From a virus: a DNA stretch of 37,170 nt. Made by a program: the position numbers and the translations under genes. The stretch is from positions 1 through 37,170 of IMG/VR virus record IMGVR_UViG_3300048597_000656. One strand, written 5' to 3'. Position 1 is the first letter of the stretch, and every line of letters begins with the position of its first letter. Of this stretch, positions 4,984-37,170 are shown piece after piece. The notes under the pieces were generated by a model. It searched no databases. It had not been told where the DNA came from and was given only the letters and a program-made list of their open reading frames with translations.

Positions 4984-4984
4984 G

Positions 4985-12255: not shown

Positions 12256-12260
12256 TTCGA

Positions 12261-14127: not shown

Positions 14128-15872
14128 CAGAGCACCGTGATTCCTCTTGATTCGTAGACGGACGGCCCGTCCGTGCCCAGCACCGCCCGCCCGAACGCCA
14201 TGAGCAGCGCGACCATGCCGTCGATCTTCTCGGCGCTGCGCTTCTTGTCCGGCGCGAGGTTCATGTTCGCGTCACTGCGCGGCACGAGGTTCGCGGCGTT
14301 CCAGAGCAGCACTGGGTCGCCGCCGTGCGCCAGCAGGCCGGCGGTGTAGGCCTCCTCGAGCGCCTTCATCGCCGGGTGATACGACTGCGGCCCCTGCCGG
14401 AACTGCACCAGTGTCAGCCCGGAGTCCGCGGCCTGCAGGTCATTGACGATCTGCGAGGCGTTCCACGGGTCGAACGCGACCTCGCGAGGCCTGAATCGCG
14501 CACAGTCGGCGAGGATATCGGCGCGGATCACGTCGTAATCCGTCACATCGCCCGGCGTGACCTGCACTCGGTTTTCTGCGATCCATGTCGCGTACGGCAC
14601 CGTCCCACGCTCGGTGCGCTGCGCAACGGCCGATTCCGGGACCCAGTACCGGCCCCAGGTGTACCAGCGGCCGTCGAGCCGCCACAGCAGCCGCCACGCC
14701 GTCATGTCGCGCGTGCTGGCGAGGTCGAACGCGGCCCAGCACGGCGCGCCCGCGAGCGCGTCCAGCGGCACCGGGCCGCCGCACCGCTTCCACTTGCGCA
14801 GGTCGATCCAGCCTTCCGCCGACGCCGCGGGCCGGTTAAGGCGCTTGATCCGGAACTCGGCCAGCGCGCCCGGCAGCGCCTTCGCCTCGGTCGCGTACTG
14901 GCGGAACTTGTCCAGCCCGATCGAGATGCCGAGCAGCGGGTTGGCCTTCACCCAGCGCCGCTCGTCGAAGTCGTCGTCCTCGTCGTCCAGCGCGTAGTAC
15001 AGCGCGAGGAAGTGGTCGGCCTCGATCACACCTTCGAGCACCTGGTGCGCGAACCGCCGCACCTCGGCCCACGGCCCCGGGTTCTCGTAACCCTCGGTCG
15101 TCGTGTACAGGAACAGCGGGTTCTTCCGAGCGCCCGCGGCGGACCGCAGCACGTCGTACAGGTCCCGGGTCTTGTGCGCGTGCAGCTCGTCGAACACGAG
15201 GCCCGACGGATTCAGGCCGTCCTGTGTCGACGCCTTCGCGTTGATCGGCTTGAACGTGCCTCCCGTCTCATACCGGGCGACCGCGTGCGCGAACGCCTCC
15301 AGCGAGAACGCCTCTCGTAGGTCTGCGTCCTTCTCGACCATGCGCTTCGCGACGTTGAACACGATGCGCGCCTGGTCGCCGGTCGTCGCCGCGGACAGGA
15401 TCTGCGGGCCGACCTCGTGCTCGCAGCAGTAGCAGTACAGCGCGATCGCCGCGGCGAGCGTCGACTTCGCGTTCTTGCGAGCCACCGCGTACAGCGCCGT
15501 CGTGAACCGTCGGGTGCCGTCTGCCGTCCTGAACCCGAACAGGTTGCAGACGAAGAACACCTGCGCCGGCGCCAACACGATCGTCGGAACGTCCCAGACG
15601 CCCTCGACGTGCGGTAGCCGTTCAATGAACGAGCAGGCATGGTTCGCCCGCGCCGCGCTCCAGACGAACGGCGGATTCCGCTTGCGCTGCGCCCGCTTCA
15701 GGTCCGCGAGGAACCGTTTCGCGGCGAGCCTGATCCACTTGCCGAACCGCTCGCCCTTCCGGTCGGCGACCGCCTCCTCGGCGTACGCGATTGCGACGAG
15801 GACGTAGTCGTCAGGCTCCCGCCGGCGGCTCCCTGAGCCCTGCGAACTTGTTGCCCGGCTTCTCGTTGCCAC
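14127..15872 (-). CDS. terL: terminase large subunit
   Basis: The 581-residue protein has the motor ATPase signature YAVARKNAKSTLAAAIAL (Walker A about residues 130-138) and SGLVFDELHAH (Walker B about 223-233), then TTTEGYENPGPW as coupling motif. The nuclease half has acidic motifs in FDLASTRDMTAW and near PDKKRSAEKIDGMVALLMA. It powers DNA packaging and cuts the genome. The chosen GTG start (15870-15872) overlaps the small subunit by 62 bases and has a GGGGA site; a start further inside would shorten only the basic N-terminus. Confidence 0.94.
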   Translation of the reverse strand: MATRSRATSSQGSGSRRREPDDYVLVAIAYAEEAVADRKGERFGKWIRLAAKRFLADLKRAQRKRNPPFVWSAARANHACSFIERLPHVEGVWDVPTIVLAPAQVFFVCNLFGFRTADGTRRFTTALYAVARKNAKSTLAAAIALYCYCCEHEVGPQILSAATTGDQARIVFNVAKRMVEKDADLREAFSLEAFAHAVARYETGGTFKPINAKASTQDGLNPSGLVFDELHAHKTRDLYDVLRSAAGARKNPLFLYTTTEGYENPGPWAEVRRFAHQVLEGVIEADHFLALYYALDDEDDDFDERRWVKANPLLGISIGLDKFRQYATEAKALPGALAEFRIKRLNRPAASAEGWIDLRKWKRCGGPVPLDALAGAPCWAAFDLASTRDMTAWRLLWRLDGRWYTWGRYWVPESAVAQRTERGTVPYATWIAENRVQVTPGDVTDYDVIRADILADCARFRPREVAFDPWNASQIVNDLQAADSGLTLVQFRQGPQSYHPAMKALEEAYTAGLLAHGGDPVLLWNAANLVPRSDANMNLAPDKKRSAEKIDGMVALLMAFGRAVLGTDGPSVYESRGITVL

Positions 15873-16687: not shown

Positions 16688-17325
16688 CAGAGGCGCCCGG
16701 ACTCCAGTCTCGAAACCCGCTGCTGCGCAGACGCGCGCGCGCCACCACGCCGGCGGATAGGGCCGGAATGACCGCGCGGCGTCGAGACCGCTGCTTCTGC
16801 AGACCATCCTCGTGCGAGGCGCGCCTTCAGCGACACCGTCGTGATTCCGAGGTCCTCCGCCCACGCGGCAGCCGGACGCGTGATACCGCCGACGGTGAGC
16901 TGCGTTCCTCGCGTCCGCCGGGCGGTGTCGACCATCTTCACCATCCCTCGCGCCTGGTTGCACTGGGCGCACGACGCGACGAGGTTCTCAACGCGGTTGT
17001 CTGCCTTCGTGCCGTTCACATGATCGACGTGCATCGAGTCCCAACCGACGCTCGTGCCGCACCAGTTGCACGCGAACGGACCCGCGCCGTGCGCGTCGTA
17101 GAACACCCTGCGGTGCGCGTATACGCGGCCGCGCTTCGCCAGCGGGTGATCGGGGGCTCGCTCAACGACGTATCCGGCCGACTGGATGTACGGTCCGGCC
17201 GGCGGCTTTCGGTCCAGCGAGCCAGTCCTGCGGAGCCGGTAGTAGTGCATCTCGCAGTACTTCGTTCGCTTACCCGTGCCTCGCGGGCACTCAGGGACGC
17301 TGCATATCCGATCCACGACGCTCAC
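16687..17325 (-). CDS. second HNH endonuclease, homing-endonuclease-like
   Basis: The 212-residue protein begins with a Cys/His cluster (CSVPECPRGTGKRTKYCEMHYYRLRRTG) that probably binds zinc. It then has a segment with VYAHRRVFYDAHG and the HNH core CNWCG...MHVDHVNGTKADNRVENL...CAQCNQARG. The C-terminal part (ITRPAAAWAEDLGITTVSLKARLARGWSAEAAV) looks like a NUMOD-type DNA-binding helix-turn-helix, as in free-standing homing endonucleases. The GTG start (17323-17325) overlaps the upstream stop. It may be a selfish insertion beside the packaging HNH gene or a functional partner. Confidence 0.8.
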   Translation of the reverse strand: MSVVDRICSVPECPRGTGKRTKYCEMHYYRLRRTGSLDRKPPAGPYIQSAGYVVERAPDHPLAKRGRVYAHRRVFYDAHGAGPFACNWCGTSVGWDSMHVDHVNGTKADNRVENLVASCAQCNQARGMVKMVDTARRTRGTQLTVGGITRPAAAWAEDLGITTVSLKARLARGWSAEAAVSTPRGHSGPIRRRGGARASAQQRVSRLESGRL

Positions 17326-17603
17326 GCGTTCCAGACCAGCACCGGCACCTGGCGGTTCAACACCTCGCCGTTGGAAAGCGTGGCTTGAGCCTCCAGCATG
17401 TACCGCTGGCCGTGCACGGCAGTCCCTGCGCCCACCTTCACGGTCGACGTCGCCTGCCCCGCGTTCGTGCTCTCGACGCCCTTCACCAGTGGCGAGGGCA
17501 CGCTGTGCACCACGCCCGAGAGCGTCGCCCCGGCGGGCATGTCGGTCCACTGGAAGGTCACGAGCACGTTGTCGCTCGGGTCGAGCAGGACGACATCCGA
17601 CAT
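17322..17603 (-). CDS. small Ig-like phage structural protein, fibre-tail adaptor-like
   Basis: The 93-residue protein is all-beta: LDPSDNVLVTFQWTD, GATLSGVVHSV, TSTVKVGAGTAVHGQRYMLEA and VLNRQVPVLVW. This strand order, with a T-x-V-x-V-x-x-G-x-x-G-x-x-Y turn, resembles small proteins annotated in some phages as fibre-tail adaptors. It sits between the repeat protein and the HNH genes. Assignment is tentative. Confidence 0.5.
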   Translation of the reverse strand: MSDVVLLDPSDNVLVTFQWTDMPAGATLSGVVHSVPSPLVKGVESTNAGQATSTVKVGAGTAVHGQRYMLEAQATLSNGEVLNRQVPVLVWNA

Positions 17604-17605
17604 GG

Positions 17606-19360
17606 TCAGTGCACCTTCGTGGAGCGTGGGCCCGCCGACACCTTCACCGTGCGACCCGAGACGACGACCGTGACCGAACGTCCACCCGCTTCGGCCGTGA
17701 TGATCCGCGCGCCGGCGTCGACCTCGAGCGTCCGTCCGCCCAGGCTCACCTGCACGCGCCGGGCATCGCTGCCGACGAGCTCGCCGACGTAGACGACGTC
17801 GACCGCGGCCCCGGACTCGCTGATCAGCGCGAGCAGCGTGGCCAGCGCCGAGACCGTATCGCTGGCGGCGCCGGCCTCGGCGACCGAAACCGTCCGCAGC
17901 GCCGTGGCCGAGCTCGTGTCCGTAGCGGCACCGGTCTCGGCGACTGCCGCTGCCCGCGTGACGACGGCGCTCGCCTGATCCGTGGCGGATCCGGTCTCGC
18001 TGACGCTCGCGGACTGCACCGCCGCACCGAACGAGACGCTGTCGGACGCGCTACCCGCCTCCGCGACGGCCGAGAGCAGGATGGCGGACGTGGACAGCAC
18101 GTCGGCCGCCGATCCCGTCTCCAGCACGCTCGCGAGCGCCTGCAGCGCCGCCGACACCGCATCCGCCGCCGTCCCGGTCTCCGTGACCGTGACGCTGTGC
18201 GTCGTCGCCCCGCTGGCGACCTGATCCGTGGCGGTCCCGGCCTCGCTGATCGTAACGGTGAGCGTCGCGATCGCGGCAACCGTGTCCGTGGCCGTGCCTG
18301 CCTCGGCGAGGCTGGCGGCGGCCGTGTAGGTGGCGCTCGGCGTGTCCGTGGCGGCGCCGGTCTCGGCGACCGACCGCGGGAACACGCCGGCGGCGCTCTG
18401 GGCGTCCGTGGCAGCACCCGTCTCGGCGATGGCGACCGGCGACACCCGTGCGGCGCTGGGCGTGTCCGTGGCCGCGGCCGTCTCGGTGAGGCTGCGCACG
18501 AGCGTCGCGATCGCGGACAGCGTGTCGCTGCCGGAGCCCGTCTCGGCCACGCTCACGTTGTGCGTGCCGCTGCCCCCGACCGGGTCCATGTCGAATACGT
18601 CGAAGTCGAACACGTCGTCATCAAACGGCGCGCCTTGGTCGAACGCGTCGGTGGCGCTGGCGCTCTCGGCGATGCTGACGTTGTGGACGGTGCCCCCGCC
18701 CGCGCTGCCCTTGATCTCCAGCGCGACGATCGAATACTTCTGCCCGCCCGGCGCGGACACGCCGACGGCGTACGTACCGACACTGCCCGCATCGGCGTGG
18801 TAGCCGGCGTATGTCGTGTAGTGCGCCGCGTCGCGGAAGTAGTTCGTTTCGGTCAGCGCACCCGCGTTCGTGCGCCACGTCCGCGAGGTGCCGTCCTCGG
18901 CGTCCCAGTCGTTGTTCGCGACCTGAATCGCGCTGTTCGCCTGCGTCGTCGTCAGGTTCAGCGACGGGGCTGCCTGATCGACGTTCGTCTTGCTGCTGGC
19001 GCCGACGCCATCGCTGCCGCGCCATACCTTGACGGAGGCGCCGTACCACTGCGCCAGCCCGCCAGGCGCGAAAGTGCCGGTGCCTGTCGTCGTGACCGTG
19101 ACGCTGGAACCGTTGGACCCGGCCACCGCCGTCATCACGCGGACGTAGCCGTAATCGGCTATCGCAACGATCTGCTGCTCGGAGAACGTCAGTCCGGTTG
19201 CGGTCGGCGTCAACGCGCCGCCGGACCCTGAGTTATAGTTCTCGCCCTGCCCCGTCCAGACGATGACGTCGCCAGTCTGCCACGACACCGTGACGTCTTT
19301 CGACGTCGCGTTGCTGTCGAACGTCGTTTTCTGGTCGTCTACGAGGGTCGGCGCGGGCAT
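17606..19360 (-). CDS. surface/fibre-like protein with about fourteen 20-residue repeats
   Basis: The 584-residue protein has three parts. Residues 1-225 form a beta-rich domain (WQTGDVIVWTGQG, NDWDAEDGTSRTWR, VGVSAPGGQKYSIVALEIKG) like those of phage structural proteins. Residues 228-526 hold about 14 copies of a 20-21 residue repeat with consensus V-x-E-x-G-x-A-x-D-x-x-S-A; the first two copies are separated by an acidic/Phe insert (FDDDVFDFDVFDMDP). Residues 530-584 form another beta segment. No enzyme motif is visible. It may be a fibre shaft or a capsid or tail decoration, with repeat number free to vary. Confidence 0.75.
   Translation of the reverse strand: MPAPTLVDDQKTTFDSNATSKDVTVSWQTGDVIVWTGQGENYNSGSGGALTPTATGLTFSEQQIVAIADYGYVRVMTAVAGSNGSSVTVTTTGTGTFAPGGLAQWYGASVKVWRGSDGVGASSKTNVDQAAPSLNLTTTQANSAIQVANNDWDAEDGTSRTWRTNAGALTETNYFRDAAHYTTYAGYHADAGSVGTYAVGVSAPGGQKYSIVALEIKGSAGGGTVHNVSIAESASATDAFDQGAPFDDDVFDFDVFDMDPVGGSGTHNVSVAETGSGSDTLSAIATLVRSLTETAAATDTPSAARVSPVAIAETGAATDAQSAAGVFPRSVAETGAATDTPSATYTAAASLAEAGTATDTVAAIATLTVTISEAGTATDQVASGATTHSVTVTETGTAADAVSAALQALASVLETGSAADVLSTSAILLSAVAEAGSASDSVSFGAAVQSASVSETGSATDQASAVVTRAAAVAETGAATDTSSATALRTVSVAEAGAASDTVSALATLLALISESGAAVDVVYVGELVGSDARRVQVSLGGRTLEVDAGARIITAEAGGRSVTVVVSGRTVKVSAGPRSTKVH
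17783..18679 (-). repeat. degenerate 60-63 bp tandem coding repeats
   Basis: Tandem units of 60-63 bp encode the 20-21 residue repeats of the fibre-like protein. On the plus strand short blocks such as GTCTCGGCGA and GTGTCCGTGGC recur with this period. Units differ at many codons, so the repeat is old or under diversifying pressure, but it could still drive copy-number change by slippage or recombination. Confidence 0.8.
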
Positions 19361-19560
19361 CAGCGCCTCCGCTCAGGCGTCGCGCGCACCTCGCCGAGCC
19401 CGCCCACGCGCACGTACATCTGCGCCACAGGCCGCTCGTCGTACTCAGCGCACACGCGGCACAGCGCCCCGACGCGCGCCTGACGCATCTCGCAGCGCGA
19501 GCATCGCCGCGCCGGGCGATTTTCCGTCAAGCGATCGGGGCGCGCGCGTGCGAACGGCAC
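19360..19560 (-). CDS. small zinc-ribbon-like protein
   Basis: The 66-residue protein has a basic N-terminus and a CSRC...CRVC pair of Cys-x-x-Cys motifs (about residues 20-38) that could bind one zinc ion, then a short C-terminal tail with MYVRVGGLGEV. The start is GTG (19558-19560), one base after the upstream gene's stop codon, and the stop overlaps the repeat protein start as TGATG. I do not recognise a family. It may be a small DNA-, RNA- or protein-binding factor. Confidence 0.55.
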   Translation of the reverse strand: MPFARARPDRLTENRPARRCSRCEMRQARVGALCRVCAEYDERPVAQMYVRVGGLGEVRATPERRR

Positions 19561-19561
19561 G

Positions 19562-20626
19562 TCACTGCTTCGCGCAGACCGCGACTAGCGTCCGGCCCCG
19601 GTACGTCGGCGACAGCAGCGCCACGTCGGCCTCCGCCACGCGCCGGTACTCTGTCGCGCCCGCGATCGCGCGCTCGCCCGTGCAGGGCTTGCCCACTGCC
19701 ACGTCGCCCAGCTTGTAGCCGAGCGCCCATGCGGTGTCGGCGGCGTTGCGGATCAGCTCGTAGGCGGGGCGCGTCGTCTGCGTGCCGTTCGTGCGGACGG
19801 CCCAGCGTTCCGGGACGACGCACGCGCCCGTGGGCGCCGTCGCTGGCAGCCACTCTCCGGCCGTCCAGCAGGCCGGGTACGCGGCGGCGGCATACGTCCG
19901 CGTCTGCGTCCACGAGCCCACGGCGGGCGCCGTGCACTGCGTGGTGCGCGTCTCGGCGGGAGGCTGCGGTGCGGTGCAGGTCGCGACCGGCGGCGCGATC
20001 GCGACCGTCGCCGTGCCCGAGTGCTCGGACTCGAAGCCCGCGGCGTCCTTCGACGTGATCTCGAACAGCCACGTCCCCGCCGCGAGGCCGGTGATGACCG
20101 TCGAGGACGCGGGCACCGGCACCTCGCGCAGCCACGCCAGCGGCTGGGCCTGCCCGGCGTAGATGTTGTAGCTCGCGAGGTTCGTCAGGGGCGAGCCGTC
20201 CGTGCGCGTCGTCGGCGGCGTCCACGTCAGTGTCGCCTGCCCCGTCCACGTCGGCGTGGGCGGCGGGCTCGGCGGCAGTGGCGGCACGGCCGCGACGAGC
20301 TCGGACTTCAGCTTGAACCGCTCCTGCGTGTACGTGCCCGGCGTCGGGCATCCGTCGCCGTGGCCCACCGGCAGGTCGGCCTCGCAGGCGTAGACGGCCC
20401 AGGTCGTCGGCACGTCCTGCCAGAGCCGGTTCGTCCCGCCGTTCCAGTCGCCGTACGGGCCGGCGGTCGCACGCGCCAGCACCGGCAGGTCGTTGGCGCA
20501 CGGCTGCCAGTTGCTGCGAACCGTGTCCCAGCACTGATTCGGCGCGGCCCACGCCGCCGTCACGCACAGGAACAGCAGCAGCGCCAGCACGGCGCCGAGC
20601 GCGTGGCGGGGGTTCAGGAAGCGCAT
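19562..20626 (-). CDS. exported protein with signal peptide and FnIII-like domain
   Basis: The 354-residue protein has a clear Sec-type signal peptide: basic start MRFLNPRHALG, hydrophobic core AVLALLLFLCV and cleavage motif AWA-AP at residue 27. The mature part has Cys-containing segments (CWDTVRSNWQPC), a Pro-rich linker (PPLPPSPPPTPTW), a fibronectin III-like domain (about 125-215) and a further Cys-rich region. It has an AAGGA ribosome site. A signal peptide is unusual inside a late structural operon. It might change the cell surface of the lysogen or infected cell. Confidence 0.7.
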   Translation of the reverse strand: MRFLNPRHALGAVLALLLFLCVTAAWAAPNQCWDTVRSNWQPCANDLPVLARATAGPYGDWNGGTNRLWQDVPTTWAVYACEADLPVGHGDGCPTPGTYTQERFKLKSELVAAVPPLPPSPPPTPTWTGQATLTWTPPTTRTDGSPLTNLASYNIYAGQAQPLAWLREVPVPASSTVITGLAAGTWLFEITSKDAAGFESEHSGTATVAIAPPVATCTAPQPPAETRTTQCTAPAVGSWTQTRTYAAAAYPACWTAGEWLPATAPTGACVVPERWAVRTNGTQTTRPAYELIRNAADTAWALGYKLGDVAVGKPCTGERAIAGATEYRRVAEADVALLSPTYRGRTLVAVCAKQ

Positions 20627-20636
20627 GAGGTGTCCT

Positions 20637-21755
20637 TCAGGTCCACCGCTGCCCGGTGAACCGGCCGAGCCGGACCCGGGCGTAGTCGATCTCGATGTTT
20701 CGCGCCGACGCCGCGCTGATCGCGACCGAGCCGCCGAACGTGCCGGCGATCGTCGTGCGCGGGCCCTGCGCCGAGGTGTACGTCGCGACGCGCACCTTGT
20801 TCTGGTAGACCTCCCAGTCGCCCGTCGAAGGCACCCGGTAGAACTCGTGCCGGAACCAGTTGTTCGCCGTCGCCGCCGCGCCGGTGTCGGTCGAGGACGT
20901 GCTCGCCCCGTTGTTCCGGCCGAAGCACAGCCAGTTGCCGCCGTTCGTCGACTCGACCCACAGTCCGTCCGTGCCGTGCGTGGTCGAGCTCACGTCCGTC
21001 CCGAGCCCGACGCGCGTGAGGTTCGTCGTGCGGTCGGTCGAGCGGTGCACCAGCTGGAAGTAGCCGATGCCCGCGAACGTCGTCGCGGCGATGGCCGCGC
21101 CGTTGCCCGGGTGGAAGTTCGCGCGGTTGCCGGACGTCGCGCCGGTGACGATGCGCAGGATGCCCGGGTTGTTCGCCGTGCCCGCGACCTGCACGTGCGT
21201 GCCGAGGTTGCCCGAGGCCGACCACGCGAGCTCGCCGAACTCGCCGGTCTCCACCGATCCGAACATGAAGTCGTCGCACAGGTCCTGGAAGTCGCTATCC
21301 GCGCGGCCGAACGTGTTCGAGAACACGCGCCAGCGCGAGCTCGTCGCGTCGTACCAGAACGCCAGCGTCTCGCCCGGCCACATCTCCAGTTCCTGCTGGA
21401 GCAGGAAGCGGTTCGCGGCCGTCGATCCGGTGCTCTCCGGCAGGAACGAGATGCAGTAGTCGCCGATGTTCGTGAACACCGCCAGGCGCCCGGCGCTCCC
21501 GCCGGCGAGCCCGGTGATGTCGCGCCACAGCCGGTCCGACGACACCCGCAGCACCGTCGCCTGCGACGGCTCCGCGCCGTTCCAGCCGGTCGGGTCGTAG
21601 TCGTTCTGGTTCGCCGCAATCTGCGCCGGCGAGATCACGCCCTGATCGAAGGCGAACGACGTGATCGGGTGCGGCGCGTTCCAGTCGTCCCGGCGAACCC
21701 TCGTCGCGTCCGCGCCCTGCGGCTTCGCGGACGTGAAGGCGTGACGGATGCCCAC
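20637..21755 (-). CDS. jelly-roll-like virion or fibre protein
   Basis: The 372-residue protein starts at GTG (21753-21755). It opens with a short segment seen in fibre-type proteins (QGVISPAQIAANQNDYDPTGW) and a beta domain with LLQQELEMWPGETLAFWYD. From about residue 150 it resembles a concanavalin/LamG-like sandwich (FHPGNGAAIAATTFAGIGYF, NNWFRHEFYRVPSTGDWEVY, NIEIDYARVRLGR). Such domains often bind glycans. It is one of a series of fibre-like genes before the terminase. Confidence 0.62.
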   Translation of the reverse strand: MGIRHAFTSAKPQGADATRVRRDDWNAPHPITSFAFDQGVISPAQIAANQNDYDPTGWNGAEPSQATVLRVSSDRLWRDITGLAGGSAGRLAVFTNIGDYCISFLPESTGSTAANRFLLQQELEMWPGETLAFWYDATSSRWRVFSNTFGRADSDFQDLCDDFMFGSVETGEFGELAWSASGNLGTHVQVAGTANNPGILRIVTGATSGNRANFHPGNGAAIAATTFAGIGYFQLVHRSTDRTTNLTRVGLGTDVSSTTHGTDGLWVESTNGGNWLCFGRNNGASTSSTDTGAAATANNWFRHEFYRVPSTGDWEVYQNKVRVATYTSAQGPRTTIAGTFGGSVAISAASARNIEIDYARVRLGRFTGQRWT

Positions 21756-21758
21756 GGA

Positions 21759-22322
21759 TCAGACGGCGAGCGAGTAGCTCAGGTTCAGCGTGTCGCCGCT
21801 CGCGACGGCCTTGTCGCCGCCGCTGAACAGGCCCGCGCTGACGAGGATGCCGGTCGTGCCGCCCTTCGTGTTGTTCGTGGTCAGGAACCCGCCCTTGATC
21901 GTGTCGGTCGCGTTGATCGTGAACGCCGCCGCCGAGCTGGTCGCCTTCGAGCCGCCGGACGCCGCCGAGAACGCCGCGGTCGGGCGGTTGGCGTTCGAGT
22001 AGGCCGTCGACTCCGTCCAGCCGGCGTGCGACGCCATCGTGTCGCCGGCGGCGATCGCCGAGTAGCCGGTCGAGCCGATCAGGCCGAAGTAGAACGCGGC
22101 GGTGTAGCCCGAGCCCGCGAGGTACTTGTCGAGCAGGTCGTTCTTGCCCACCGTGACGACGGTGTTCTCGAACGTGTCGCGCCACTTCAGCGCGCCGTCC
22201 GGACCGTAGCACTCGACGACATAGACGCCGTGCGCCTCTGCGCGCTCCGCGATGCCGCCGGTCGTCTCGACCGTCGCCGCCGCCCCGTCCCGCGCGTTCC
22301 CGCGCTCGCCCACGCCGCTCAT
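21759..22322 (-). CDS. virion-associated beta protein of a common phage type
   Basis: The 187-residue protein has a short polar N-terminus followed by a core with [60 protein letters not shown] and ITKG-like strands ending [11 protein letters not shown] have seen this pattern in many uncharacterised phage structural proteins. The ATG overlaps the next stop as ATGA. The function is unknown; a small decoration or fibre-base protein is plausible. Confidence 0.65.
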
Positions 22323-22633
22323 GCGCGCCTCCGGATGATCTCGACGCCGTCGATCGTCTGCCCTTCGAACGCGTCCCAGAACGCCGTGGCGACCGCGCCG
22401 TAGGCCGCGCCGTACGCGGCCAGTGCCTCGACGTCATCGGCCGACGGCGCCGCCTGCAGCGCGTCGTGCTGCGCGATCGCCGCCGCGAGCTGCTCGGGGT
22501 GGCGCGCCTGCGCCGGGTCCAGCTCCTTCGCGAGCGCGACGGCCGCGGGCGTCGGCAGCGCCAGGCGGATCTCCTGCGCGCCGGCCTCCGCCATCGCTTC
22601 GCGGTACGCCGCGACCTTGTCCCGAATCGTCAT
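22319..22633 (-). CDS. small Ala-rich helical protein
   Basis: The 104-residue protein ([20 protein letters not shown] to VEIIRRRA) is rich in Ala and predicted to be almost all helical, with a probable coiled region around [21 protein letters not shown] do not recognise its family. It lies between a tail-hub-like gene and a virion protein, and could be a chaperone or assembly partner. The upstream extension of its frame is Arg-rich shadow sequence. Confidence 0.62.
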
Positions 22634-22647
22634 GGTTCGCCCTCGCG

Positions 22648-23661
22648 TTAGTTCTCGCGGATCCCGCCCGGATTGCCGCCGCCGCTTCCACCGCCACCGC
22701 CGACCAGGTACCCGCCGGTCCCGTAGACGCTGCCGTACCCGTAGCCCTTCTGGCCCCAGTTGCCCTTGAACCCCGGGATGAACTTCAGCAGCTCGAAGAA
22801 CTTGTCCCCGGCGAAGTCGCGCTGGTGGTCCTCGAGCGTCATCCGGCGGATGTCGTGCGCCGCGTAGTCCGGGTCCTCGCAGACGAGCCGGATCTCGCTG
22901 GCGTTCTGGCCCATGCGGACCTTCATCACGTCCATGTGGCCGTACCAGATCTCCTCCGGTGCGGCGACCCAGTGACCGGCGTCGTTGAGCCAGCCCATCA
23001 GCAGCCGGAAGTCCCGGCCTTGGTAGTTCTCCGTCATCGCCGAGCCGAGCGCCTCGTTCGGGACGCCGGCGAGCCGCACGACCAGCTGCTTCGGGGTCGA
23101 GCGCGTGTCCTCGACCATTTCCTCGACGCTGCCGAAGCCGCCGATCGAGCCGTAGGTGTTGCCCATCCACTCGACGTTCCCGACGCCGTCGTGCACGCGG
23201 ACGATCCCGGACGGGAAGTCGAGCTCGGCCAGCAGGCGCAGGCGGACCCCGAGCTTCGCGAGCTCGGCGAGGTTCGCCGCCGCGAGGAACCGGCCGGAGC
23301 CGGCGCCGACCGGCGTCGTGAACGCCACGGCACCGGACGGCGCGGACTCGTTGCCCGCGGCGTCGCGCGCGGCCACCGTGACCGACCACGAGCCGGCCGG
23401 GGTCAGCAGCAGCGTCTTCGATGGCACCGACGTGTACGGCAGTTGCAGGACGCCGTTCACGCGCCAGGCGTAGGCGACGGTGTCGTCAGTGTTCGCAGTG
23501 CACGTGGCGATCGCGGACGTCGCCGTGATCGAACCGACGCTCAGGCCGGTCGGCACCGCCGGCGGCACGGTATCCGGCGGCGCGCCTACCGGTCCGTCGA
23601 GGTCGTCGAAGTAGACCCCGCCCAGCCCGTCGGCCAGGTTGTCGAACAGCGTGGACGGCAC
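22648..23661 (-). CDS. tail-hub-like protein with N-terminal FnIII domain
   Basis: The 337-residue protein has an N-terminal FnIII-like domain (about 30-116, VPPAVPTGLSVGSITATSAI) and then a domain resembling DUF2163/hub-type tail proteins: LRLLAELDFPSGIVRVHDG, YGSIGGFGSVEEMVEDT, VVRLAGVPNEAL, NYQGRDFRLLMGWL, YGHMDVMKV, DIRRMTLEDHQRDFAGDKFFE. The C-terminus is Gly-rich. The hub-like part normally sits near the tail tip genes, so its place before the terminase is striking. Start is GTG (23659-23661). Confidence 0.68.
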   Translation of the reverse strand: MPSTLFDNLADGLGGVYFDDLDGPVGAPPDTVPPAVPTGLSVGSITATSAIATCTANTDDTVAYAWRVNGVLQLPYTSVPSKTLLLTPAGSWSVTVAARDAAGNESAPSGAVAFTTPVGAGSGRFLAAANLAELAKLGVRLRLLAELDFPSGIVRVHDGVGNVEWMGNTYGSIGGFGSVEEMVEDTRSTPKQLVVRLAGVPNEALGSAMTENYQGRDFRLLMGWLNDAGHWVAAPEEIWYGHMDVMKVRMGQNASEIRLVCEDPDYAAHDIRRMTLEDHQRDFAGDKFFELLKFIPGFKGNWGQKGYGYGSVYGTGGYLVGGGGGSGGGNPGGIREN

Positions 23662-23665
23662 GGGC

Positions 23666-25081
23666 CTAGGCCCAGATCGGCGTGAAGCGGCGAGCCGTCG
23701 CGCGGTCGGGCGTGCCCGGCTTGTGGATCATCACCCAGACCTTGTCGCCCTCGACTAGCGCGCCCGGCGTGATCGCGACGTTGAGTTCGCCGGTGCTGTC
23801 CGTCGTCGCGCCCGCGAGCACCTGGTCGGGACCGGGATTCGCGACCGTCGGGCCGCTCGCGCTGCGCCACACGGAGACCGTGAGACCGCTTTCCGAGGTC
23901 CACGGCGTGCCGTCCTTGGCGATCAGCCGGTCCCGGAGGTACGGGACCGTCGCGCCGCCCCCGGAGATTGCGATCGTGACGTCAGCCGACCATCCGGTGC
24001 CGTCCTGAATCCGCCCGGTCAGGCTGGTCGCGGTCGTCGACCCGCTGACGGTGCCGTCCGCGTTGACGGTCAGGACGCCGCCGCCGGTGTCGTACTCGAG
24101 CTGGTGCCCCGGCGCGATGTCGGTCGGGTCGCCCTCGAGCCGGTACGCCGCGGTCGTGTCCAGCGTCCCGAACGTCACCCACGCGCGGCCCGCGGGCGGC
24201 GTGATCGGTGCGTTCTGCCCGCTAACGGCCGCGAGCGACAGGTTCGCGGTATCGCTACCGACGACCGCACGCAGCGTGGTCGCGGTGCCGTAGCGCAGCA
24301 GGCCGCCCGTGCCGAACCCGGTCACGTTGAACGTGCCCGACGTGGCGTTGCCCGTGACCTGAGTCTGCGTGACGACCGTCGCGCCCTGCACGAGTGCGAT
24401 CGTGCGGTCGCCGGTCGTCGCGCCGAGGTTCGTGCCGGTGAACGCGACGCCGGTTTGCGTGCTGGTCAGGATCTCGTCGGTGTCGACGTCGGTCAGCGAC
24501 GGGGTTGCGCCACCCGAAACGCCGTCCGTCCAGTTATCGACGGTGTACTGGTCGCGGGCGCTCGCGCCCTGAGCGATGCTGAATCCCGGGTTCCCGCCGG
24601 TCTTCGGCGTGCCGTCGGTACCGGAGAACACGGACGTAGGCGTGACGTCGCCCTCGCCCAGCGATACGCGGATGCCGCCCCCGGCCTCCTGCGCGACCCG
24701 CACCGTGATGCCGGTTGTCGCAGGGCTCGAGAACCCGTGGGCTACGTTGAACTGCCCGAGGAAGAGCGAGCCGTCCTTGTAGAGCGACCATGCCGTGGCA
24801 AAGACCCGAACGCGGTACGAGTCGTTGGCGTCCGTGCCATTGCAGAACACTTCGCGCGTGCCGTCGGACCAATCGCCCGGGCGGAAGAAGATCTGCGACG
24901 CCTGGATCTGCGGCTGGCTGTTCGAGTAGCGATATGCAGCGTTCGAGTAGCCGGTGTTGATCTGCACCGCGTTCGACTGAACGACGCACCGATCGCCTTG
25001 ACCGGCCGAGTTCACCCACTTGGGGTCGTGTGTCGAAAGCGCCGTACCGTTGGCGTTGTTGAAGAAATTGTCGGACGCCAT
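23666..25081 (-). CDS. multi-domain beta protein, fibre candidate
   Basis: The 471-residue protein begins MASDNFFNNANGTALSTHDPKW and has a jelly-roll/LamG-like domain to about residue 190 (IFFRPGDWSDGTREVFCNG, VFATAWSLYKDGSLFLG). Ig-like domains (GVAFTGTNLGATTGDRTIAL) and a C-terminal beta domain with LTVSVWRSASGPTVANPG follow. The mix of glycan-binding-like and Ig-like domains is typical of fibre or surface-binding proteins. It overlaps the tailspike candidate stop by one base (TAATG). Confidence 0.65.
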   Translation of the reverse strand: MASDNFFNNANGTALSTHDPKWVNSAGQGDRCVVQSNAVQINTGYSNAAYRYSNSQPQIQASQIFFRPGDWSDGTREVFCNGTDANDSYRVRVFATAWSLYKDGSLFLGQFNVAHGFSSPATTGITVRVAQEAGGGIRVSLGEGDVTPTSVFSGTDGTPKTGGNPGFSIAQGASARDQYTVDNWTDGVSGGATPSLTDVDTDEILTSTQTGVAFTGTNLGATTGDRTIALVQGATVVTQTQVTGNATSGTFNVTGFGTGGLLRYGTATTLRAVVGSDTANLSLAAVSGQNAPITPPAGRAWVTFGTLDTTAAYRLEGDPTDIAPGHQLEYDTGGGVLTVNADGTVSGSTTATSLTGRIQDGTGWSADVTIAISGGGATVPYLRDRLIAKDGTPWTSESGLTVSVWRSASGPTVANPGPDQVLAGATTDSTGELNVAITPGALVEGDKVWVMIHKPGTPDRATARRFTPIWA

Positions 25082-26754
25082 TACGCCGGCACCAGCTCAA
25101 TGTTCGCGCCGACGTCTGCGCCGTCCGTCGCCGCGCCCTTGTAAGCGCTTCCTGCAGCCAGGCGATAGTTCCCGCCGGCGTAGTTGACGAAATTCGCCGT
25201 GTCGAACGTCGCCGGGTAGAAGTTGTTCGCAGGATGCGTGCCCGCACTCGCGCCGGGCAGCACGTTCTTGCGGAAGTCGGCGGACGGCGCGCCCGCGGTG
25301 AGCCCTGCCGCGCCGAACGTGAAGCTGCCCGATGGGTACGTACTGCCAAGCTGGTACGCGGCCGCGGGGAGGATGTTGTCGCGAAACACGAAGCCGGTCA
25401 TCTGCTCGCTGCTGCTGGCCATCTGGCAGCCCCACGACGCGGTGCTCGTCCAGAGGAACGAGTTGTGGAACACCGTCACGTCGTCGCCGCCGCTGAACTG
25501 CGCGACGAACTGCTGCCCGCCTCCACTGGGGTTGCCGAGCAGCACGAGGTTGTCGTGGCAGGAAATCCGCTTCGTCCGCCCGGACGCGTGGATGTTGTCC
25601 GTACCGAGCGTCTGAATGAACTTGCAGACGTTCACGCATCGGTTGTAGCGGAGCGTGATGTCCTCGCAGACCGCGAACGTGTCGCCGCCGTCCTGGTTTC
25701 GCACGGTGACCGGGAACACGAACGACGGCGGCGCCGCGTCCCACAGGTTCTCGAAGACGTTGTTCTCACACAGCGCCCGGCGGCACTTCTTGAACTCGGC
25801 CAGCGCCTTGCACGACGGACGGCCGATGTAGGCCAGGTCGCGGAAGTAGTGGTTTCCCGTGATCGTGATGTCGGACGGGATGCCAGTCGCCTCCGAGCCG
25901 GTATCGCCGCCGCCGAACATCGTCGTTTCGCCGATCGCCTCGAGGAAGTTGTTCCGGATGAGGTGCGGCCCGCGTCCGCACCACGCGACGTAGGCTTGCG
26001 CGTCGCGACCGGTCGTGCCGCCGGCGTCCGTCCAGACGATGTTGTCGACGCGAGAGTCGACGAGCGCGATGTGATCGCCGTGCGCCTGCACGCCGCGCAG
26101 GCACTGGTTCGAGCCGTTGCCGTCGAGAATGCACCGGTCAATCGTGATGTAAGACGGCAGGTTCGCCGCCACGGTTTCCGTCGAGTTCTGCGGACCGATG
26201 CAGATCAGCGCCTGGCACCAGTTCGAGCCGCGCGGGATGACCCGAAGGCCGACGAGTCGCCAGTAGGACGACTGCGCCGGGAACGACAAACCGATGCCCG
26301 TGCTGAAGTTGTCGGCCGTCAGCGTCGGCATACTCGACGCGTCGGTCGCAATGGCGCGCACGCCGACCACCGGCAATCCCACGCCCGGCAGTGCCGTCGT
26401 CATCACGTAGATCCATCCCGTCCCCGTCTTCGTCGGGAACGTGAACGAACCATTGAAAGTGCTTCCGGACTGCACGAGGATCGTGTCGCCGCGCGCGCAG
26501 TTGTTCAGCGCGTACTGCAGACCGCAGTTGGTGCGGTTGCCGGACCCAGTGCCTGCCGCGTTGTTGTCGGAGGTGTTGGTCGCCGTCCAAGTGTTCCCGG
26601 TCGGCGCGCTGTAGGTCGTGTCCACCGTCGCGCGCGGCAATTCCGCGACGCCGTCGAAAGGGCCTCCACCTCCGCCCCCGGCCGGCTTCGACGACCACGC
26701 AAGGCCCGAGGTCACGTACCGCGTCAGCGTCTTCGACTTCAGCGACGTCGGCAC
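25081..26754 (-). CDS. tailspike candidate, right-handed parallel beta-helix
   Basis: The 557-residue protein starts at GTG (26752-26754), with an AAGGA site about 10 bases upstream. After a Gly-rich linker (about 25-32) it shows repeated short strands with asparagine turns: YITIDRCILDGNGSN, IALVDSRVDNIVW, PHLIRNNFLEAIGE, DITITGNHYFRDLAY, ALCENNVFENLWD, EDITLRYNRCVNVC, DVTVFHNSFLW, FVFRDNILP. This is the signature of a pectate-lyase-like beta-helix, the fold of many phage depolymerases. It is the first gene of the late operon. It may bind or cut host surface polysaccharide; catalytic residues cannot be fixed by eye. Confidence 0.75.
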   Translation of the reverse strand: MPTSLKSKTLTRYVTSGLAWSSKPAGGGGGGPFDGVAELPRATVDTTYSAPTGNTWTATNTSDNNAAGTGSGNRTNCGLQYALNNCARGDTILVQSGSTFNGSFTFPTKTGTGWIYVMTTALPGVGLPVVGVRAIATDASSMPTLTADNFSTGIGLSFPAQSSYWRLVGLRVIPRGSNWCQALICIGPQNSTETVAANLPSYITIDRCILDGNGSNQCLRGVQAHGDHIALVDSRVDNIVWTDAGGTTGRDAQAYVAWCGRGPHLIRNNFLEAIGETTMFGGGDTGSEATGIPSDITITGNHYFRDLAYIGRPSCKALAEFKKCRRALCENNVFENLWDAAPPSFVFPVTVRNQDGGDTFAVCEDITLRYNRCVNVCKFIQTLGTDNIHASGRTKRISCHDNLVLLGNPSGGGQQFVAQFSGGDDVTVFHNSFLWTSTASWGCQMASSSEQMTGFVFRDNILPAAAYQLGSTYPSGSFTFGAAGLTAGAPSADFRKNVLPGASAGTHPANNFYPATFDTANFVNYAGGNYRLAAGSAYKGAATDGADVGANIELVPA

Positions 26755-26789
26755 GCGCTCGGTTTCCTTATGTCGGGTGGGCGACGTCG

Positions 26790-26807
26790 GGCGGCTTTAC
26801 AGTCGCC
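26790..26807. promoter_or_regulatory. imperfect palindrome upstream of the late operon
   Basis: GGCGGCT and AGTCGCC form 7-bp arms with one mismatch around TTAC, between the divergent tailspike and PEP-CTERM genes. It could be an operator or an early-transcript hairpin. Confidence 0.3.
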
Positions 26808-26823
26808 GGACCGTTCGGCACGT

Positions 26824-26851
26824 AAGCTACTGATCGCACGGGTGTGCACAA
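26824..26851 (-). promoter_or_regulatory. candidate late promoter with overlapping palindrome
   Basis: On the minus strand TTGTGC (26846-26851) and TAGCTT (26824-26829) are separated by 16 bp, a plausible promoter about 70 bp before the tailspike start. The palindrome TGCAC-AATTC-GTGCA (26845-26859) overlaps the -35 element, as an operator or activator site would. The whole region 26755-26902 is otherwise non-coding. Confidence 0.35.
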
Positions 26852-26902
26852 TTCGTGCATCGTCGGCACCCAAGAGCCGGATCTACCGGCCGGGAGTAGA
26901 CG

Positions 26903-27547
26903 ATGCGATGGAACGTTCTGGCGCCGGTCGCGGCGCTGTGCTTGCTTGCGCCCGCCGCTTACGCGGCCCCGATCATCGGAGGTGAGATCCGAAGCACCGG
27001 CCTCATCGGCGGTGCGTTCGAATTTCAGGGCTCCTACTTCTCGGTCGACGGTCGAGTCGACGACGGGCTGTTCGACCTCGGCCTCGACGTCATCGCGCCG
27101 GGCCAGACCCTGCAGCCGCTCGTCGTCTCGACCGGCGGCAACATCCGGTCCGGATCGGCGACCGTCAGCGGCACGGTGTTCCCGAACATCGCGTGGGGCT
27201 CGATCGTCGCGGAGCGCGGCTCGACGCTGAACGCGCGCGGCGCGCCGATCGCGATCACGGGCACCGGGCGCGTCACGACGCCGTTCACGTTCTCGGGCGC
27301 GCTGTGCGGCATCGTGCCGCCGGCAACCTTCGTCCAGCCGTGTGCCGTCGACCTGCGCGACCTCGTCGGCCAAGGCGTGCTCGAGATGGAGATCGGCGAG
27401 AGTTCGCTGCCCGGCTACTTCCGAACGACGTCGGCCGTCTGGCGCTTCACCGTCCCCGAACCCGCCACCCTCGCCCTGCTCGCGCTCGGCCTGGTCGGCG
27501 CCGGCGCGTCGGTGAGAAAGCGCCGGCCGGGGTCACCGGCCGGCTGA
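26903..27547 (+). CDS. PEP-CTERM sorting domain protein, cargo gene
   Basis: The 214-residue protein has a Sec signal peptide (residues 1-21/22, cleavage near AYAA), a beta-rich body (22-180) with two Cys (135 and 147), and a C-terminal PEP-CTERM signal: VPEPATL (184-190), a hydrophobic helix (188-204) and RKRR (205-208). Such proteins are processed by exosortase in Gram-negative bacteria and usually linked to exopolysaccharide or biofilm matrix. A GGAG site precedes the ATG. It is transcribed against both flanking phage operons, as lysogenic conversion genes often are. Its body belongs to no family I can name. Confidence 0.85.
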   Translation: MRWNVLAPVAALCLLAPAAYAAPIIGGEIRSTGLIGGAFEFQGSYFSVDGRVDDGLFDLGLDVIAPGQTLQPLVVSTGGNIRSGSATVSGTVFPNIAWGSIVAERGSTLNARGAPIAITGTGRVTTPFTFSGALCGIVPPATFVQPCAVDLRDLVGQGVLEMEIGESSLPGYFRTTSAVWRFTVPEPATLALLALGLVGAGASVRKRRPGSPAG

Positions 27548-27808
27548 GGTAGGCGCGCCGCCGAGGGAGTGCGGGCGGCGCTGCCGGAAACAGAAAGCGC
27601 CCGGCGAGCTCGCGCTGGCCGGGCGAAGTCGGGACTACCCGACGGGGATCGACAGGGTCGGCGAACGCCACGGGGCGCGCGAGGCGCGTATCTGCGGGGT
27701 TCGTGCAGATATGCGAGGGGCTCGCCGCGCTGACACGTTCGGCGAGCCTACACGGCTGCCCGCGAATGTAGCGTGCACGAACGAGGAAATGAACGCGCAA
27801 CGCCTGCA
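27548..27808. terminator. intergenic region with three hairpins between convergent genes
   Basis: This gene-free stretch separates the PEP-CTERM gene (+) from the end of the early operon (-). It holds three inverted repeats: CGCCCGGC/GCCGGGCG (27598-27605 and 27618-27625), GCGTATCTGC/GCAGATATGC with one G-U pair (27686-27695 and 27705-27714) and CTCGCCG/CGGCGAG (27721-27727 and 27740-27746). On the minus strand CTTTCTG follows the first hairpin. They probably act as terminators for both strands. Confidence 0.5.
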
Positions 27809-28261
27809 TTACGCGGATATTTTTTGTCGCGACACTTTTTCGAGCGAGTCGTCGATCCGCGCGAGCCAGCCGTCGATGAACACCTTCGCGGCGTCGCGCG
27901 CGTCGTAGAACTCCTGCCGGCTCATCCCGAGCGCCGCGGCCTTCCACTTCGCGGTCCCGCCGTAGACGTAGTACGCGTCCAGCACCAGCGCCTGCAGGTG
28001 CCGTGCGCGGTTGTGCGACACGAGCAGGTAGCGCCAGGCGCGGTTGACGTGCAGCGCGTCGCCGACGTACACCTCGGGGAACCGCTGGCTGACGATGCCC
28101 TGCCCCGCGCCGTCGCGATCCTCGCGGATCGACCCCAGCGTCGAGCCGGTAGGCCCCAGGTACTCACGCGCCTGCCGGCACGGCGCGAGGCCGAGCAGTT
28201 GACGGCGCGTGCACGCCCACTGCTCGCAGACGAGGTCGATCGGGTCGCGGTTACGCGTCAT
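27809..28261 (-). CDS. last early-operon gene, possible late transcription activator (Q-like)
   Basis: The 150-residue protein starts at ATG 28259-28261 with an AAGGAG site 8 bases upstream. The N-terminal part has a Cys (VCEQWACTRRQLLGL), and the C-terminal part (VLDAYYVYGGTAKWKAAALGMSRQEFYDARDAAKVFIDGWL) looks like a sigma-region-4-type helix-turn-helix, as in phage antitermination Q and related late regulators. Its place at the end of the early operon, next to the late operon, supports that role. The assignment is inference, as I cannot confirm the family. Confidence 0.6.
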   Translation of the reverse strand: MTRNRDPIDLVCEQWACTRRQLLGLAPCRQAREYLGPTGSTLGSIREDRDGAGQGIVSQRFPEVYVGDALHVNRAWRYLLVSHNRARHLQALVLDAYYVYGGTAKWKAAALGMSRQEFYDARDAAKVFIDGWLARIDDSLEKVSRQKISA

Positions 28262-28788
28262 CGGTCGATCTCCTTGGGACCCCACGAGGCGAACTCGCGC
28301 TCAGGCGCATTACCGAGCCCGTGGAGCCGCGACAGCCCGTAGGCGGCCAGCAGGAGCGCCTCGGCCCGGTTGTGGTCGCCCTTGCGCTCCAGCGGCGCCG
28401 TAGGGAACAGCGCGCGGGCACGGTCCCGGGCGGCGTTCTTGTCGGGGCCGAGCCCCAGCGCCCGCTTCCACGTCCCGGGCGTCACGAGCTCCCACGGCGT
28501 GACCGACACCTGCAGGGTCGCGAGCAGCGAGCCGATCCCGGCGCCGATCGTGATGCTGGACGTGCCGCCCTGCCCCGGCATGTGCTGCGGCCGCTCGACG
28601 AACGACCGGACGATGTGGCGGCCGGAGCGCGTCTCGGACAGCAGCTCGCGGAAGTCCTCGCCGTGCACCCACGCCAGTTTCCCGTCCCGGCACACCGGCA
28701 GGTCGAACACCGCGACGAACTCGCCGTGCTCGCCGATCGCGGCGCACGCACCGGTCACGCCCGGGTCGATGCCGAGCACCAGCCTCAT
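28258..28788 (-). CDS. RuvC-like Holliday junction resolvase
   Basis: The 176-residue protein has the RNase H-fold motifs of RuvC: VLGIDPGVTG (Asp8), SFVERPQHMPGQG (Glu65), an aromatic/basic TPGTWKRALGLGPDKNAAR segment, and KGDHNRAEALLLAAYG (Asp138, His139, Glu143). Phage members resolve branched DNA before packaging. The size matches bacterial RuvC (about 170). It overlaps both neighbours by ATGA. Confidence 0.88.
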   Translation of the reverse strand: MRLVLGIDPGVTGACAAIGEHGEFVAVFDLPVCRDGKLAWVHGEDFRELLSETRSGRHIVRSFVERPQHMPGQGGTSSITIGAGIGSLLATLQVSVTPWELVTPGTWKRALGLGPDKNAARDRARALFPTAPLERKGDHNRAEALLLAAYGLSRLHGLGNAPEREFASWGPKEIDR

Positions 28789-33288: not shown

Positions 33289-33729
33289 GTGCCGGACACC
33301 AACGAGACGATCGGCGCACGTATCCGGCGGCTGCGCACGAGCGCGGGCCTCAGCCAGTCGGAACTCGCGACCGCGGCCGGCGTCACCAAGGCCGCGATCT
33401 CGCAGTGGGAGACGGGCAACGTCTCCAATCTGAAGGCCGTAAACCTCATTGCCTTGGCGCACGCGTTCGAGGTGTCGGCCGAGGAAGTGTGGTCGGGAAT
33501 GCCGGCAAAAGCCGGGCCGACTGCGCTGGCCGACATCCCGCCGCGCCGGCTCGATCTCATCCGCGCGTACGGTCGACTCCCGGATGCGTGGCGCAAGCCG
33601 ATCCGGATGATGATCGAGTCCCTCGACGCCTCCATCGACCCCAAACGTCGCGCGTTTGAGGCCGACCGCGCGCGTGCCTCCGAAGTGATACGGCGTTCGG
33701 GGAAAGCCCGAGACAAGGCGCCGACGTAG
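33289..33729 (+). CDS. XRE-family repressor, CI-like, without peptidase domain
   Basis: The 146-residue protein starts at GTG 33289-33291 and has an XRE helix-turn-helix (NETIGARIRRLRTSAGLSQSELATAAGVTKAAISQWETG, residues 5-43). A short C-terminal region follows with IRAYGRLPDAWRKPIRMMIESL and a charged tail. No LexA/S24 Ser-Lys peptidase domain is present, so RecA-stimulated self-cleavage is unlikely. It sits between two operator clusters and divergent from the Cro-like gene. A TTG at 33268-33270 is an alternative start that adds 7 residues. Confidence 0.82.
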   Translation: MPDTNETIGARIRRLRTSAGLSQSELATAAGVTKAAISQWETGNVSNLKAVNLIALAHAFEVSAEEVWSGMPAKAGPTALADIPPRRLDLIRAYGRLPDAWRKPIRMMIESLDASIDPKRRAFEADRARASEVIRRSGKARDKAPT

Positions 33730-35956: not shown

Positions 35957-36181
35957 ATGTTCCTGAGCGACGCCGACGTGACCGCGATGACCGGGCTTGC
36001 CAAGGGCAAACACCGGCCGGCCACGCTGCGCCGCTGGCTGGAGCAGAACGGGTACACCTTCAAGGTGGATTTCTTCGCGCGGTACGATGGCTGGTACAGC
36101 GTCATGGACCCCCGCCAGCGAGCCGCCACCGTCGAGCCGCCGCGGGGCCGTGTGCGCGAACGGCTGCGGAGGACCGCATGA
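35957..36181 (+). CDS. DUF4224-type protein, excisionase candidate
   Basis: The 74-residue protein has FLSDADVTAMTGLAKGKHRPATLRRWLEQNGYTFKVD, the pattern of DUF4224 proteins that accompany phage integrases: a winged-helix-like domain with an RWL helix. It overlaps the integrase start as ATGA, so both are made together. It probably shapes attachment-site DNA for excision. Coordinates start at the ATG 35957 after a 52-base gap. Confidence 0.75.
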   Translation: MFLSDADVTAMTGLAKGKHRPATLRRWLEQNGYTFKVDFFARYDGWYSVMDPRQRAATVEPPRGRVRERLRRTA

Positions 36182-37170
36182 CGCAACGGCGCTGTCCCGC
36201 CGGCCACCCGCTGCTCGAGCGGATGTACTGGAAGCACGGGGCCTACTACTACGTCGAGCGCGGAGAATGGCAGCGGCTCGCCGCGTCCTATCGCGCCGCG
36301 CTGCAGGCGTACGGCCGGCGCACCGCCGAGCCGACTGGCGCGATGGCGGATCTGGTGCGCGATGCCCTGCCCGGCCTGACGCACGGCAAGGCCGCGTCCA
36401 CGGTCCGGCAGTACCGCTACGCCGCGATGCAGGTTGCGCACATGCTCGGCGACCTGGAGCCCGCGCAGGTCACGCAGGCCGACGTCTACGACATGCTCGA
36501 CCAGCTCCGCGACACGCCGAACATGGCGAACCGCATCCTCACGGTCGCCCGGCTGGTGTTCAAGCACGCGGTGAAGCGCCGGCTGATCGCGAACAACCCG
36601 TGCACGGGCGTGGACCGCTTCGAGGAGAAGCAGCGGGACCGCTACCTGACGGACGACGAACTGGCCGCGATCCGGGCGAAGGCCGGACCCCGGCTGCAGG
36701 TCATCATCGACCTCCTGTACTTGACCGGCCAGCGCGTCGCGGACGTGCTTGCCATCCGGCGCTCCGACCTGACGGACGACGGCATCCAGTTCCAGCAGGG
36801 TAAGACGGCCATCCGTCGGACGGTCGCCTGGAACGACGACCTACGGGCCGCGGTGGAGGCCGCGAAGGCACTGACCGGGGTCGTGACCAGCCTGACGCTG
36901 CTCCGGGGCCGCTGGGGCGGTCCGGTGGACTACAAGAGCGTGCAGGAGCAGTGGACGCGGGCCTGCCGGCTGGCGGGCGTGGCAGACGCCCACATCCACG
37001 ACGTGCGGGCGAAGTCGGCGACCGACGCGGAGGCCGCGGGCCTGAACCCGACGGCGCTGCTCGGCCACACGTCGCCCGCGATGACCGCCAGGTACCTCCG
37101 GTTGAAGCGCTCGCCGGTCGTTCAGGGGCCGGGGTTTAGACAAGCGTCAGACAGGGCGAAAAATGTCTAG
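36178..37170 (+). CDS. int: tyrosine recombinase, phage integrase
   Basis: The 330-residue protein has an N-terminal arm-binding part, a SAM-like core-binding domain (about 55-145, STVRQYRYAAMQVAHMLGDL) and a catalytic domain with LTGQRVADVLAI (Arg), QQGKTAIRR (Lys), HIHDVRAKSATDAEA (His and Arg), LLGHTSPAMTARYLR (His and Tyr). It integrates and excises the prophage. It is the last gene of the recombination operon rather than having its own promoter, so it is under the same operators. The stop codon is the last triplet of the window. Confidence 0.95.
   Translation: MTQRRCPAGHPLLERMYWKHGAYYYVERGEWQRLAASYRAALQAYGRRTAEPTGAMADLVRDALPGLTHGKAASTVRQYRYAAMQVAHMLGDLEPAQVTQADVYDMLDQLRDTPNMANRILTVARLVFKHAVKRRLIANNPCTGVDRFEEKQRDRYLTDDELAAIRAKAGPRLQVIIDLLYLTGQRVADVLAIRRSDLTDDGIQFQQGKTAIRRTVAWNDDLRAAVEAAKALTGVVTSLTLLRGRWGGPVDYKSVQEQWTRACRLAGVADAHIHDVRAKSATDAEAAGLNPTALLGHTSPAMTARYLRLKRSPVVQGPGFRQASDRAKNV

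Follow-up and report, generated by a model that had tools for sequence, protein, structure and literature searches.

Locus and phage genome

The window analysed here is IMG/VR virus record IMGVR_UViG_3300048597_000656 over its whole length (37,170 bases, with about 70% GC all along). Judged from gene content, it appears to be the complete-looking genome of a temperate phage of siphovirus and HK97 type, encoding lysis, tail, capsid, prohead protease, portal and terminase functions, a fibre-like block, a Q-like antiterminator, a RuvC-like resolvase, a replication ATPase, a CI-like HTH protein and a tyrosine integrase, the last of which identifies the phage as temperate. The first codon is ATG and the last is a stop codon, ends that would fit a gene-trimmed provirus record. 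The main genes are as follows.

11050-14127, minus strand: capsid, prohead protease and portal genes (PF05065, PF04586, PF04860)
14127-15872, minus strand: terminase large subunit (PF03354/PF20441)
25081-26754, minus strand: first late-operon gene, 557 aa, putatively spike-like (no family match)
26903-27547, plus strand: PEP-CTERM preprotein gene, 214 aa, ATG start (PF07589, TIGR02595)
27809-28285, minus strand: Q-like antiterminator (phrog_79, weak match)
28258-28788, minus strand: RuvC-like Holliday junction resolvase (phrog_1770)
33289-33729, plus strand: CI-like repressor (HTH_3, Pfam)
36178-37170, plus strand: tyrosine integrase (PF00589)

The fibre-like gene block (17322-26754) lies between Q and terminase, apart from the tail-tip genes at 2357-5905, and includes a 584-aa protein (17606-19360) made mostly of short repeats of the type ETGxATDxxSA.

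The PEP-CTERM gene sits on the plus strand between two minus-strand operons, convergent with Q and divergent from the late operon, whose first gene is its other neighbor. A regulatory-looking region lies 5' of it and strong hairpins lie 3', so that both the opposed orientation and the flanking DNA are as the preliminary description had them. The hairpins are listed below.

27598-27625, minus strand: strong hairpin, then CTTTCTGTTT, a tR'-like terminator between Q and the late operon
27689-27711, no strand assigned: hairpin TATCTGC...GCAGATA (from sequence)
27719-27748, no strand assigned: hairpin GGCTCGCCG...CGGCGAGCC (from sequence)

All three are terminator-like and together part the PEP-CTERM gene from Q; the first may also end the PEP-CTERM transcript.

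PEP-CTERM protein

The gene carries the following signals.

26892-26896, plus strand: Shine-Dalgarno GGGAG (from sequence)
26903-26968, plus strand: predicted signal peptide, residues 1-22, cleaved at about AYA/AP (read by eye)
27449-27520, plus strand: PEP-CTERM sorting domain (VPEPATL, hydrophobic helix, RKRR), residues 183-206 (PF07589, TIGR02595)

A signal peptide and a VPEPATL/helix/RKRR tail had been noticed from the letters alone, and the curated models now confirm the tail: the C-terminus VPEPATLALLALGLVGAGASVRKRR matched Pfam PF07589 (E value, 1.1e-7; 32.0 bits; cut-off, 20.7; residues 183-206) and TIGR02595 (28.6 bits; cut-off, 16), and whole-library E values of 1e-7 to 1e-6 exclude a chance match. 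The N-terminus reads by eye as a signal peptide, MRWNVLAPVAALCLLAPAAYA, with AP after the cleavage point. This was the sole PEP-CTERM match in the record.

The ectodomain matched nothing in PHROGs, NCBIfam or PDB sequences, and the 214-aa protein had no relatives in isolate phage and plasmid records. Searches of >1,000 genomes at BLAST sensitivity (Burkholderiales, Gammaproteobacteria and Alphaproteobacteria sampled) returned only chance-level matches and no chromosomal homologue for the ectodomain, and a peptide-pattern search of genome contigs likewise found none. This lack of homology to known proteins (tblastn, peptide patterns, NCBIfam, genomes) fits PEP-CTERM sorted proteins, among which unique ectodomains are usual (PMC1569441). 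Membership of the flocculation-associated PepA family (NF033554; PMC9850573) was rejected, as the weak 38-bit match is far under the 80-bit equivalog cut-off and comes mainly from the tail, the ectodomain alone giving none. A single-sequence AlphaFold model was uninformative (pLDDT, 31).

No exosortase match was found in any of 47 records (the window and 46 other PEP-CTERM-carrying viral contigs). Since the phage has no exosortase, any sorting would have to fall to a host enzyme; PF09721 scored over its cut-off in 11 of the 41 genomes holding loci related to the phage's large terminase subunit (TerL). Searches via TerL, integrase and genome scans returned no host (best TerL identity, 65%; best full-length integrase identity, 36%).

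Putative upstream control region

Three elements were recognised in the 148-nt gap upstream of the gene.

26785-26801, plus strand: PEP-CTERM regulon motif 1 (PrsR-type enhancer site), CGTCGGGCGGCTTTACA, one mismatch to TGTCGN6TTTACA
26845-26859, no strand assigned: perfect 15-bp inverted repeat TGCAC-AATTC-GTGCA, possible operator (from sequence)
26864-26877, plus strand: sigma-54-like element, CGGCACCCAAGAGC, with an intact -24 box and GG-N9-GC, not GG-N10-GC

Proteobacterial PEP-CTERM genes are preceded by a 17-nt motif 1 ending in TTTACA, a spacer of ~63 nt and a sigma-54 motif 2 (Haft et al., PMC1569441). The motifs were rederived from 50 bacterial PEP-CTERM loci as TGTCGN6TTTACA followed, mostly 61 to 66 nt later, by TGGCACN5TTGC, and 32 of the 50 loci passed the criterion applied. 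The window has one site for motif 1 at ≤1 mismatch, against 0.12 expected, and CGTCGGGCGGCTTTACA is its best-scoring site by far (17.2, versus 12.5 for the next). It shares the coding strand of the gene and stands 101 nt upstream of the ATG; the -24 box CGGCAC follows exactly 62 nt after motif 1, within the range usual in bacterial PEP-CTERM genes. We estimate the probability of motif 1 falling in this gap by chance at about 2e-4, from the shuffle expectation and the gap size. The -12 GC sits 9 bases after the GG rather than 10, one base nearer than the sigma-54 consensus, so promoter function is uncertain and perhaps weak or dead; a similar spacing occurs in one examined bacterial PEP-CTERM locus, itself a weak match. 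A simple sigma-54 scan at 2 mismatches gave no upstream match, the element having been recognised later through its spacing from motif 1, and a promoter scan gave no strong sigma-70 promoter. There was no Rfam match.

The octamer TTCGTGCA occurs three times in the window (26852, 27700 and 27774), each time in the noncoding DNA flanking the PEP-CTERM gene. Such a triple cluster confined to these gaps arose in 0 of 40 Markov shuffles, for an octamer noticed post hoc.

These elements could be read instead as phage control of a surface gene, with a phage promoter in the divergent gap, TGCACAATTCGTGCA and the TTCGTGCA octamers as operators and an accidental likeness to motif 1. The perfect inverted repeat and the placement of every TTCGTGCA copy beside the gene would suit this reading, whereas no quality sigma-70 promoter is present, motif 1 with a matched -24 spacing is unlikely by chance and the octamer was picked out after the fact; we consider phage control quite unlikely. 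The upstream DNA resembles a host PrsR/sigma-54 control site of PEP-CTERM genes rather than a phage operator.

The locus as a whole shares with the PEP-CTERM/exosortase (EpsH) system of Gram-negative bacteria (Haft 2006, PMC1569441) the signal peptide, PEP motif, hydrophobic helix and basic tail, the unique ectodomain, the single-gene unit and an upstream motif 1 at the usual spacing from the -24 box. It differs in lying on a phage, in its GG-N9-GC, in an upstream gap of 148 nt versus >200 nt and in the absence of exosortase from the element.

Cargo status and relatives

The proposal that the gene is phage cargo is upheld by its context and composition. Phage genes lie on both sides, the nearest window end is 9.6 kb away and codon usage is indistinguishable from that of the other phage genes (Z, -1.0). 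The same observations largely refute an artefactual join of a piece of host chromosome to a phage contig, a reading which draws on the contig being an IMG/VR virus record and not a sequenced isolate phage, and which we regard as very improbable.

TerL has relatives at 80 viral loci and, within bacterial genomes, at 53 loci, most of them from Beta-, Gamma- and Alphaproteobacteria; of 50 TerL-related viral records, none contains a PEP-CTERM match. A relative of Q was detectable in one record only (L082, 42% identity; contig also read as L192), which has no PEP-CTERM match; there, the start of a late-type gene lies about 190 nt beyond Q. No relatives of the early region (primase, RuvC) were found. 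The gene is thus an addition to the core of the phage genome that holds it and is missing in relatives, as is expected of a moron; from its sequence context, we conclude that it is phage cargo. Like morons in the Q-late slot of other phages (e.g., lambdoid phages), it would form its own unit, and it adjoins Q and terminator-like hairpins; unlike lambdoid-type morons, it has a predicted exosortase substrate as product and a PrsR/sigma-54-like control region, and it is antisense to the late genes.

PEP-CTERM genes in other viral contigs

IMG/VR was searched with DNA patterns for PEPATLALL[GA] and PEP[AS][ST]LALL[GA], which retrieved 37 and 96 stretches, respectively; with two tail spellings searched, these and the derived counts are lower bounds and not frequencies. 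A signal-peptide-like N-terminus (called by a simple hydrophobicity score) and a short PEP-CTERM tail were combined in 71 of the 88 reading frames examined. The 71 genes form 19 groups whose ectodomains are unrelated to each other and to the window protein. Ten representatives were scanned: TIGR02595 is listed above its cut-off for six, and the remaining four hit models of PEP-CTERM protein families with scores short of the full-length cut-offs. In the search of phage proteins proposed in the preliminary description, PHROGs and isolate phages gave no relative; IMG/VR holds at least 71 genes of the same kind with unrelated ectodomains.

Genes at contig edges in IMG/VR may be host DNA, and only hallmark genes on both sides were taken as proof of carriage. 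In contig L139, a portal and a methyltransferase gene (the latter assigned by sequence likeness to a scanned gene of L147) precede the PEP-CTERM gene and a major head protein gene follows it; in L247, terminase lies on one side and a portal/adaptor gene on the other. The PEP-CTERM gene adjoins terminase in L240 and a ParB-like gene and a DNA polymerase gene in L165. The FGQT-type ectodomain family (a 46-member group; L139 6639-7613, L147, L152, L162 and others) recurs in metagenome phage contigs, its L139 member standing within the head module beside the DNA methyltransferase-like gene.

Motif 1 (≤1 mismatch) stands upstream of 8 of the 71 genes, against about 0.26 expected from background, and 5 of these 8 also have a correctly spaced motif 2. 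A scan for the promoter side alone gave 47 viral stretches, of which 9 by reading (seven by automatic count) have a signal-peptide protein with a PEP-CTERM-like tail within about 80 nt. In L165 (6699-7520) and L172 (4230 onward), the PEP-CTERM gene has both motif 1 and a well-formed sigma-54 motif 2; both contigs encode DNA polymerase and ParB-like proteins, with no integrase detected. A PrsR/sigma-54-type promoter also directly precedes the PEP-CTERM genes of L387 (6792) and L393 (12654; IMGVR_UViG_2706794914), two records of one IMG dataset whose PEP-CTERM proteins are nearly the same.

Compared with the window, these carriers (L139, L147, L165, L172, L240, L247 and others) share the protein architecture and some have motif 1 and motif 2, whereas they have unrelated ectodomains, belong to other phage types, mostly without a detected integrase, and hold the gene in the head module, beside terminase or in the replication module. 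A tyrosine integrase was found in 8 of the 47 records (the window and 46 carriers), some of which may be fragments, so carriage is not only a prophage trait. The suggestion of a prophage-supplied PEP-CTERM gene accordingly stands insofar as this phage is temperate, but such genes are neither unique to it, occurring in dozens of IMG/VR contigs, nor confined to prophages. On these sequences, phage carriage of PEP-CTERM genes is recurrent.

Recurrence also weighs on whether the window gene is a passenger, picked up by chance, unselected and due to be lost, with a promoter already decaying (wrong -24/-12 spacing). The gene was seen in a single record, no close relative carries it and motif 2 is imperfect, all of which would agree with this. 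Against it, the reading frame, signal peptide, sorting tail and Shine-Dalgarno are all intact, codon usage is already phage-like and genes of this type are found again in 71 other viral contigs, with ectodomains of at least 19 types; we think a passenger unlikely.

Interpretation

We propose (probability, roughly two in three) that a temperate phage captured a host-derived PEP-CTERM transcription unit together with some or all of its bacterial control region and has retained it as a moron in the slot separating Q from the late operon, where it runs antisense to lytic transcripts, and that the exosortase-sorted product would alter the coat of the lysogen. The unit would have been taken from a host together with motif 1 (PrsR-type enhancer site) and the sigma-54 -24 box, in part or whole, although the searches above found neither the host nor a chromosomal homologue of the ectodomain. 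In the lysogen, motif 1 suggests expression alongside the host exopolysaccharide/PEP-CTERM regulon, and upon induction Q-dependent late transcription would cross the gene in the antisense direction. After Sec export and removal of the signal peptide, the C-terminal helix would anchor the product in the inner membrane, where a host exosortase would cut it, and the product would end in or on the cell surface or exopolysaccharide. In Aquincola, the PEP-CTERM protein PepA shifts polymers from soluble to bound and restores flocs (PMC9850573).

Among possible benefits, an altered lysogen surface is the likeliest. Superinfection exclusion (raised in the preliminary description) or receptor masking, in which the exported protein would sit in the coat and block adsorption of related phages, is one possible specific function within the moron reading, with which its probability overlaps. 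Known lysogenic-conversion genes of other phages act in this way, and the surface-destined product and lysogen-type location would suit it. There is no likeness in sequence or fold to exclusion proteins (Pfam, NCBIfam, PHROGs, PDB sequences; the AlphaFold model being uninformative), and many carriers have no detected integrase, a setting where long-term exclusion matters less. We hold exclusion to be improbable as the specific function.

More broadly, it seems a little better than an even chance that exosortase substrates are a general, unrecognised class of cargo in unrelated phages with and without detected integrase, some of which would keep the host PrsR/sigma-54 site and so wire a viral gene into the exopolysaccharide regulon to remodel the coat of the infected cell.

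Significance

PEP-CTERM proteins shape flocs, biofilms and exopolysaccharide in soil, sediment and sludge bacteria and have until now been regarded as chromosomal traits. We found no description of phage-encoded members in the open-access papers searched. If phages carry and move PEP-CTERM genes, sometimes under the host exopolysaccharide regulator, they could directly change the aggregation and coat of environmental bacteria, and the poorly understood functions of PEP-CTERM ectodomains would become testable as phage genes, in the presence and absence of lysogens.
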